From positions 1 to 64,000 of the forward strand of contig JAGGVB010000179.1 of the NCBI GenBank assembly GCA_021158245.1: a DNA stretch of 64,000 nucleotides, written 5' to 3'. Positions 61,059 through 62,880 of this stretch are shown in pieces. The position numbers and the translations under genes are program-made. Source of the stretch: a bacterium (GTDB lineage Bacteria; Zhuqueibacterota; QNDG01). Numbering within the stretch: position 1 is the first letter of the stretch; each line of letters opens with the position of its first letter. The notes under the pieces are model-generated. The model made no database searches. It was not told where the DNA came from and was given only the letters and a program-made list of their open reading frames with translations.

Positions 61059-61400
61059 ATGCCAATTGTAAATTATGAAGAAAGAGAAAATTTTGTTATT
61101 CTAAGAATAAACGAACCGAAGATTTTTCAGGAAAAGGTGTTTATTTTCAGAGAACAGATACTCAACATTATGAAAAATAACATAGATAAGTTTATTCTGG
61201 ATTTATCGGAAGTGGAGGTTATCAACAGCTCGGGCCTGGGCGTTTTACTTTTAATGCATGACAGACTTGACAAGAAGAATGGTAAAATGGTTATATGTGG
61301 GCTTAACCCCCTTTTAAAAGAGCTTTTTAAGAGGATGAGGCTGAATGACATCTTTCAAATAGAAAATTCAGTAAAAGATGCCGAAGAGTTATTAAATTGA
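61059..61400 (+). CDS. STAS-domain anti-sigma factor antagonist
   Basis: A 113-residue single STAS protein of the SpoIIAA/RsbV type: FILDLSEVEVINSSGLGVLL carries the phosphorylatable Ser before GLG, followed by NGKMVICGLNPLLKELFKRM and a C-terminal helix. It normally binds a kinase/anti-sigma or a partner-switch protein, but no such gene is nearby. It lies 12 bases after comM and is likely cotranscribed. Confidence 0.92.
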   Translation: MPIVNYEERENFVILRINEPKIFQEKVFIFREQILNIMKNNIDKFILDLSEVEVINSSGLGVLLLMHDRLDKKNGKMVICGLNPLLKELFKRMRLNDIFQIENSVKDAEELLN

Positions 61401-61406
61401 AATTTT

Positions 61407-61450
61407 GCAGGGTGTTTGGCTGTTTATAAAACAGTATTAAAAAACCCTGC
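61407..61450 (+). terminator. hairpin pair after the STAS gene
   Basis: GCAGGGT (61407-61413) pairs with ACCCTGC (61444-61450), enclosing a second stem CTGTTT/AAACAG (61420-61425/61429-61434). There is no following T run. It may close the comM-STAS transcript or protect its end. Confidence 0.4.
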
Positions 61451-61456
61451 AACCTC

Positions 61457-61597
61457 GTCCCAGCCTATAAAGAACCCGCATTACACGGTGGGTGTCCTCC
61501 TGAACGCTTTTTACTTCCACTCTAAGGAGGCTTGTAATAGACGCCAGAGCCGGACTCCCAAATTTACAACTTGACTCTTTATAGTTGCGAAAAGGAC
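61457..61597 (+). ncRNA. structured RNA with 6S-like rod and central bubble
   Basis: No gene spans this 141-base stretch. It folds by eye as a rod. The closing stem is CTATAAAGA/TCTTTATAG (61465-61473 with 61576-61584, nine perfect pairs), plus outer GTCC/GGAC (61457-61460/61594-61597). Then comes a symmetric internal bubble of 16 against 16 bases (61474-61489 and 61560-61575). The terminal arm starts GGG-T-GTCC/GGAC-T-CCC (61490-61497 with 61552-61559) and ends with TCCT/AGGA. A closing stem, open central bubble and capped arm are the layout of 6S RNA, which binds sigma-70 RNA polymerase. The sequence was not matched to a family model, and no clear promoter was found. Confidence 0.45.
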
Positions 61598-61674
61598 TCA
61601 ATTACAGGGTTACCTATTTTAAGTTAGTTGCAACACTTTAATTTGGAAAATTTATAAGCAAATGTCAAGAGAAA

Positions 61675-62880
61675 ATGGTGATTAACTTGATTAGATATTT
61701 AAAAATTATTTGTATTTATGCAGGAATAATATTTCTTGCGGGCATGTTTATAGACAATAATTTATTGGCTCAGTCTAATAAAAGGCCAAGGGCAAGAGAA
61801 GCTTGTGTGGTAATTGGTGTTATATCCCCTGGTAAATATAATGCAATCACTGATGTAAAAGGTGTAAAGGTTGGACATGTTACTATCCAAAAGGGAGATT
61901 CAGTTCGTACCGGAGTTACTGCTGTTCTGCCTCATGACGGGAACATTTTCAAGGAAAAAGTACCTTGTGCTGTTTATGTGGGTAATGGTTTTGGCAAACT
62001 TGCAGGCTCAACTCAGATAGAGGAACTAGGCAACATTGAAACACCAATCATTTTAACAAATACATTGAATGTAGGTACTGCTGTGAAAGCAGTTGTTAAG
62101 TATACTCTCAGCCTTCCCGGAAATGAAGAAGTTCGTTCTGTTAATGCGGTTGCAGGAGAAACAAATGATGGGTGGCTGAATAATATAAGAGGATTTCATA
62201 TAACAGAAGATGATGTTATTAATGCAATAAAAAATGCTAAGGGTGGAATTGTGGGGGAAGGATGTGTTGGTGCTGGTACGGGAACAACATGTTTAGGATT
62301 CAAAGGTGGTATAGGAACATCTTCACGAGTATTACCGGATGCTCTCGGAGGATGGACGGTGGGGGTGTTAGTACAAACAAATTTCGGCGGGATTCTGTCG
62401 GTAAACGGAGCACCTGTGGGAAGGGAACTCGGGAAATACTCATTCAGCAGGTACCTTCCTGATGATGAAGAGGGCTCCTGCATGATTGTAATAGCAACAG
62501 ATGCTCCTCTCTTGCACAGGAACCTGAAGCGTCTTGCTTCAAGAGCAATGCTCGGCCTTGGATTGAGCGGAGGATTTTCAAGTAACGGCAGCGGAGATTA
62601 TGTCATCGCTTTTTCTACAAACGAGAAATGTAGAATAAAATCTGATAATAAAAAAAGCGTGGAACGTTTTGAGCAAATTCCAAACAATAAAATGTCTCCC
62701 TTATTTTTAGCAGTTGTAGAAGCAACGTATGAAGCGATACTTAATTCTCTTTTTGCTGCTGAAACTGTAGTTGGAAGAGATCATCATAAAGTTGAGGCAC
62801 TACCAATTGAGAAGACAATAAAAATATGTAAAAAATATAACTCTTTAAATTGGGATAAATCCTTGATTAATAATAGATAA
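61675..62880 (+). CDS. exported P1-family (S58, DmpA-like) aminopeptidase
   Basis: A 401-residue self-processing N-terminal-nucleophile hydrolase of the DmpA/P1 family. The signal-like start (YAGIIFLAGMFIDNNLLAQ) is followed by the family opening ITDVKGVKVGHVTIQKGD, then VNAVAGETNDGWLNNIRG and GEGCVGAGTGTTCLGFKGG. The processing site EEGSCMIVIATDAPL would cleave before Ser268, the new N-terminal nucleophile. Members cleave N-terminal residues from peptides or beta-peptides; export is unusual enough to note but occurs in the family. The structured RNA lies directly upstream. Confidence 0.9.
   Translation: MVINLIRYLKIICIYAGIIFLAGMFIDNNLLAQSNKRPRAREACVVIGVISPGKYNAITDVKGVKVGHVTIQKGDSVRTGVTAVLPHDGNIFKEKVPCAVYVGNGFGKLAGSTQIEELGNIETPIILTNTLNVGTAVKAVVKYTLSLPGNEEVRSVNAVAGETNDGWLNNIRGFHITEDDVINAIKNAKGGIVGEGCVGAGTGTTCLGFKGGIGTSSRVLPDALGGWTVGVLVQTNFGGILSVNGAPVGRELGKYSFSRYLPDDEEGSCMIVIATDAPLLHRNLKRLASRAMLGLGLSGGFSSNGSGDYVIAFSTNEKCRIKSDNKKSVERFEQIPNNKMSPLFLAVVEATYEAILNSLFAAETVVGRDHHKVEALPIEKTIKICKKYNSLNWDKSLINNR

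Follow-up and report, generated by a model that had tools for sequence, protein, structure and literature searches.

The 274-base gap between a STAS-domain open reading frame (ORF; 61059-61400, plus strand) and an S58-family peptidase ORF (61675-62880, plus strand) almost certainly harbors the 6S RNA (SsrS) gene of a bacterium from KSB1, which we take to be the phylum also named Zhuqueibacterota. The gene, as delimited by the family model of the mature RNA, occupies positions 61440..61613 on the minus strand of the window, i.e., the whole stretch of 64,000 nucleotides that was analysed. A first-pass annotation had proposed a 6S-like RNA, possibly the 6S of this lineage, without giving a strand, and both this proposal and the length of the gap are borne out, the former by an end-to-end match to the Rfam 6S family (RF00013) together with conservation across the phylum and the latter by the flanking ORF ends (61400 and 61675). 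As read from the DNA, the case for a KSB1 6S RNA is built on homology, strand, ends, a structure backed by covariation, a conserved predicted promoter, and a conserved genomic place, and we infer transcription, polymerase binding, pRNA synthesis, and growth-phase control. The gene in the gap is ordinary, previously unannotated, and located on the strand opposite to its neighbor genes. It belongs to a known RNA family, and what it adds is coverage of a phylum rather than a surprise.

The RF00013 model aligned to the element over its entire length (model positions 1-187 of 187) with a score of 42.7 bits, corresponding to an E-value of 2.1e-7 when 451 bases were searched and of 2.9e-5 when the whole window was searched. 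The gathering cut-off of RF00013 is 46.4 bits, and because the element scores below it, the default Rfam scan remains silent: at the gathering threshold, zero matches were returned for the window. The bare reading of the sequence thus detected a genuine non-coding RNA that is overlooked at the default annotation cut-off. In a same-genus relative, the RF00013 match reaches 51.4 bits and lies above the cut-off. R1, a covariance model constructed from 30 KSB1 loci, scores the window element, itself one of the training rows, at 135 bits (E 2.1e-22). A clear 6S at another locus, named in the first-pass annotation as an observation that would speak against the element, was looked for in the 3.2-Mb genome, where RF00013 has a single match at an E-value of 10 or better, the element itself. 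The 6S-Flavo model (RF01685), suggested there as a second model to try, found no real match: its best hit in the genome lies on another contig and has 22.1 bits compared with a cut-off of 85 (E 1.73). In this respect the KSB1 RNA differs from 6S-Flavo, which is described as an RNA doing the job of an already validated class and is listed for Bacteroidetes (PMC2864571). Weak matches to SNORA15, RsaOG, and similar families adjoining the element were dismissed as chance; they score far under their cut-offs, belong to eukaryotic or staphylococcal families, and also overlap an ORF end.

On the minus strand, the outer closing helix is formed by a 5' strand at 61601..61611 and a 3' strand at 61443..61453, next to which a T run forms a predicted rho-independent-type end. 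Further inward, the nine perfect closing pairs noticed earlier are indeed present as Watson-Crick pairs (61584-61576 with 61473-61465) that close a bubble of 16 + 16 bases. The 16/16 bubble of the first-pass annotation is correct in this Watson-Crick drawing but shrinks to 13/13 on the minus strand, where three further pairs (G-U, U-G, and C-G) lengthen the closing helix to 12. This inner closing helix, P2, is composed of the 5' strand CUAUAAAGAGUC (61573..61584, minus) and the 3' strand GGUUCUUUAUAG (61465..61476, minus). The central bubble consists of a 5' side (61560..61572, minus), which is the predicted pRNA template, and a 3' side (61477..61489, minus), which carries a small hairpin of CCG (61488-61486) with CGG (61478-61476), the G at 61476 being common to this hairpin and P2. 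Beyond the bubble, GGG-A-GUCC faces GGAC-A-CCC with an A/A mismatch and leads into the terminal arm (61490..61559, minus), whose base holds a GGG/CCC clamp and the mirrored mismatch that had been claimed for it. The originally proposed span of 61457-61597 is shorter than the gene and leaves the outer closing helix outside. The element resembles 6S/SsrS (RF00013) in length, closing helix, bubble, terminal arm, end-to-end alignment, and single copy, whereas it differs in its A/U-rich inner closing helix and in scoring under the curated cut-off. Taken alone, the 141-base segment folds with ordinary energy (z -0.99 on the minus and -1.36 on the plus strand); no weight was therefore placed on it, and the identity was decided by the covariance match and conservation. 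A 178-base stretch that encloses the complete element with its outer helix does fold unusually well, with -60.4 kcal/mol on the minus strand (z -3.04, 1 of 200 shuffles being equally good) and with -46.1 kcal/mol on the plus strand (z -2.28).

Compensatory base changes, the check put forward in the first-pass annotation, were found among relatives. In a sequence-only alignment of 30 loci including the window element, RNAalifold predicted 30 pairs, 14 of which show double-sided change, and within the order alone (11 sequences) double-sided change was observed in 11 of 48 pairs. For a second test, the structure was not derived from the KSB1 sequences but taken from Rfam via the window row. With this structure, 23 of the 47 pairs show double-sided change, compared with 15.6 in shuffles and 8-13 in slid versions of the structure, and 80.1% of the cells pair, compared with 74.6% and 40-50%, respectively. 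The observed values were reached in none of 500 shuffles on each of five covariation measures. Kinship may inflate the double-sided counts, yet the slid control retains kinship and scores far lower. Double-sided change was seen in 7 of the 11 pairs of the outer closing helix (helix 2; 90.2% of cells paired) and in 4 of the 10 pairs of P2 (helix 4; 88.3%). The GGG/CCC of the terminal arm is invariant in all 30 sequences, with double-sided changes in the adjoining pairs, and the three innermost pairs of the 3' bubble hairpin (columns 162-164 with 179-181), which share G bases with P2, have their commonest pair in 28-29 of 30. Some Rfam consensus pairs fail in KSB1: for helix 3, 29.8% of cells are paired, and the helix 5 consensus has a few inner pairs that almost never form. 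The closing helix, the open central bubble, and the terminal arm are maintained by compensatory change in KSB1.

The predicted 6S promoter comprises a -35 box TTGACA (61663..61668, minus) and, 17 nt past it, a -10 box CAAATT (61640..61645, minus). TTGAC[AT] occurs no more than 90 nt upstream in 29 of the 30 loci, while 200 dinucleotide shuffles gave a mean of 3.06 and a maximum of 7; the sole locus lacking the box, L010, has just 27 upstream bases and was scored as a miss. The last upstream TTGAC[AT] was taken in each case, which is perhaps not the functional box in L004, L016, L020, L028, and L029. In the order-level alignment, the -35 box is found in 11 of 11 sequences, with CAAATT or a near variant 17 bases on in all 11. 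A generic promoter scan of 61300-61800 found none because CAAATT is too unlike TATAAT, and the promoter call is consequently based on conservation. The expected transcription start near 61633 precedes the 5' end of the family model by about 20 bases, so a short 5' leader, either trimmed or kept, is likely in the window's order. At the other end, the 30 loci are T-rich past the closing helix, least clearly so in L007. In the window, 6 bases separate the -35 box from the start codon of the S58 peptidase gene, which is read in the divergent direction (61663-61675), and at this distance the predicted 6S promoter and the peptidase start region may interfere with each other. Past the 6S end, at 61404-61449, the window contains an inverted second copy of the closing sequence (CCCTGC versus GCAGGG), which is not visible in the same-genus relative; this copy might base-pair with the 3' strand of 6S or terminate transcription of the STAS gene on the plus strand.

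Counting against the 6S assignment are the score under the gathering cut-off, the Rfam pairs that do not form in KSB1, and the 10 phylum genomes without a match. As a rival, a plus-strand RNA structure, either a 5' leader that controls the S58 peptidase/NfeD genes or a 3' end of the ComM/STAS operon, would suit a gap between same-direction plus-strand genes as well as a plus strand that folds too (z -2.28). However, it is the minus strand that carries the family match, the wobble pairs, the predicted promoter, and the T run and that has the better folding energy, and for L031 and L032 R1 gives scores of 154.9 and 152.5 on one strand versus 17.8 and 27.6 on the other, leaving a plus-strand element with next to no probability. 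Another 6S-related polymerase-binding RNA, for example the actinobacterial Ms1, which binds the core enzyme, is very improbable as well. Ms1 is reported to be structurally related to 6S (PMC9130861), and bubble geometry alone can therefore not separate the two, but the full-length match goes to RF00013, the genome has no other 6S match, and Ms1 is described in Actinobacteria (PMC9130861).

As a 6S RNA, the KSB1 molecule should, by homology, bind the polymerase holoenzyme as a promoter mimic. The predicted sigma-70-type promoter, reading away from the S58 peptidase gene, would give rise to a transcript that terminates at the T run past the closing helix; the long double helix of this RNA, with its 13/13 bubble, would resemble a melted promoter to the polymerase. 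As growth stops, the RNA would bind the polymerase in complex with the main sigma factor and block promoters. When nucleotides return, the polymerase would use the 5' bubble strand as the template for a short pRNA, and this pRNA would open P2 and thereby free the polymerase. In Bacillus subtilis 6S-1, the reported pRNA start is nt 40, within the 5' strand of the bubble (PMC8876501), and by analogy a putative pRNA start is placed at about 61568-61569, likewise in the 5' bubble strand.

Release has been described in two modes: in E. coli, a hairpin on the 3' side of the bubble is extended, and for B. subtilis 6S-1 a bubble collapse helix has been deduced (PMC8876501). When the 5' strand of P2 was blocked in folding, minimum-energy predictions made without a control showed pairing between the 3' P2 strand and the 3' bubble side for 28 of the 30 sequences; such pairs were gained in 17 of 30 and unchanged in 13 of 30, two of which, L006 and L027, have none. 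The B. subtilis-type collapse helix was rejected, since with P2 blocked it was predicted in just 2 of the 30 KSB1 sequences. The KSB1 RNA is like B. subtilis 6S-1 in that a short hairpin is possible in the 3' bubble side of the free RNA (PMC8876501) but differs from it in the collapse helix. The predicted folds favor the hairpin mode. More tentatively, they hint at a phylum-wide release switch, closer to E. coli release than to the B. subtilis collapse helix, in which the 3' bubble hairpin and P2 compete for shared G bases; by opening P2, the pRNA would then complete the 3' bubble hairpin.

The genomic place of the gene is conserved. Of 29 relatives, 25 have a ComM or STAS homolog 3' of the 6S gene and 23 have an S58 peptidase or NfeD 5' of it; 28 have at least one such neighbor and 20 have both, counts that are limited by short loci at contig ends. 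The neighbor homologs are all encoded opposite to the 6S gene, and L028 is the sole locus without any of them. This neighborhood of ComM/STAS and S58 peptidase/NfeD differs from that of proteobacteria, where ygfA is reported beside 6S (PMC9130861). When 80 ComM loci were searched with R1 at an E-value of 0.01 or better, only the two KSB1 loci among them matched, and an Rfam scan of 17 of these 80 loci at the gathering threshold detected 6S in L032 only. Since R1 was trained on KSB1 alone and Rfam covered 17 of the 80 loci, these searches are weak evidence that the ComM-6S neighborhood is absent outside KSB1.

Within the phylum, RF00013 matches at an E-value of 1 in 47 of 59 genomes including the window's own, and all 11 other members of the order that were examined match this model. 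The lineage was recognized as KSB1 through a locus of the same phylum, L024, whose entire sequence lies within L031, a locus on contig JAUZRQ010000027.1 of candidate division KSB1. At an E-value of 0.01, R1 had a match in 72 of the 82 genomes searched from the phylum, each match being 1.1e-14 or better; 30 of these 72 genomes trained the model, and the independent finds are therefore 42 of 52. Among good-quality genomes, 46 of 49 have an R1 match. Laxer filters recovered none of the 10 negative genomes, of which seven are less than 90% complete or more than 5% contaminated and three are more than 90% complete with at most 5% contamination. No literature on 6S RNA and KSB1 together was found in a search that did not cover the broad surveys by Barrick and Wehner, and "6S RNA" is absent among the matches listed on Zhuqueibacterota, Marinimicrobia, and candidate phyla. 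A well-supported 6S RNA is added for an entire uncultured phylum, in which the Rfam threshold is passed in just 23 of the 59 genomes examined, and the lineage model and the gene-neighborhood marker can now be used for annotation.

In G027, a genome of the phylum given as 100% complete in some 30 contigs, the phylum model found no match, whereas it did find one in G016, a member of that genus; loss, strong divergence, or an assembly gap are possible explanations. G056 carries two 6S copies (L127:2040-2230 and L128:2688-2881). No ComM, STAS, S58, or NfeD homolog was found alongside the second copy, which is either part of a duplicated cassette or located on a stray contig (the genome has 5% contamination); the approximately 310 bases around both copies are 93% identical.
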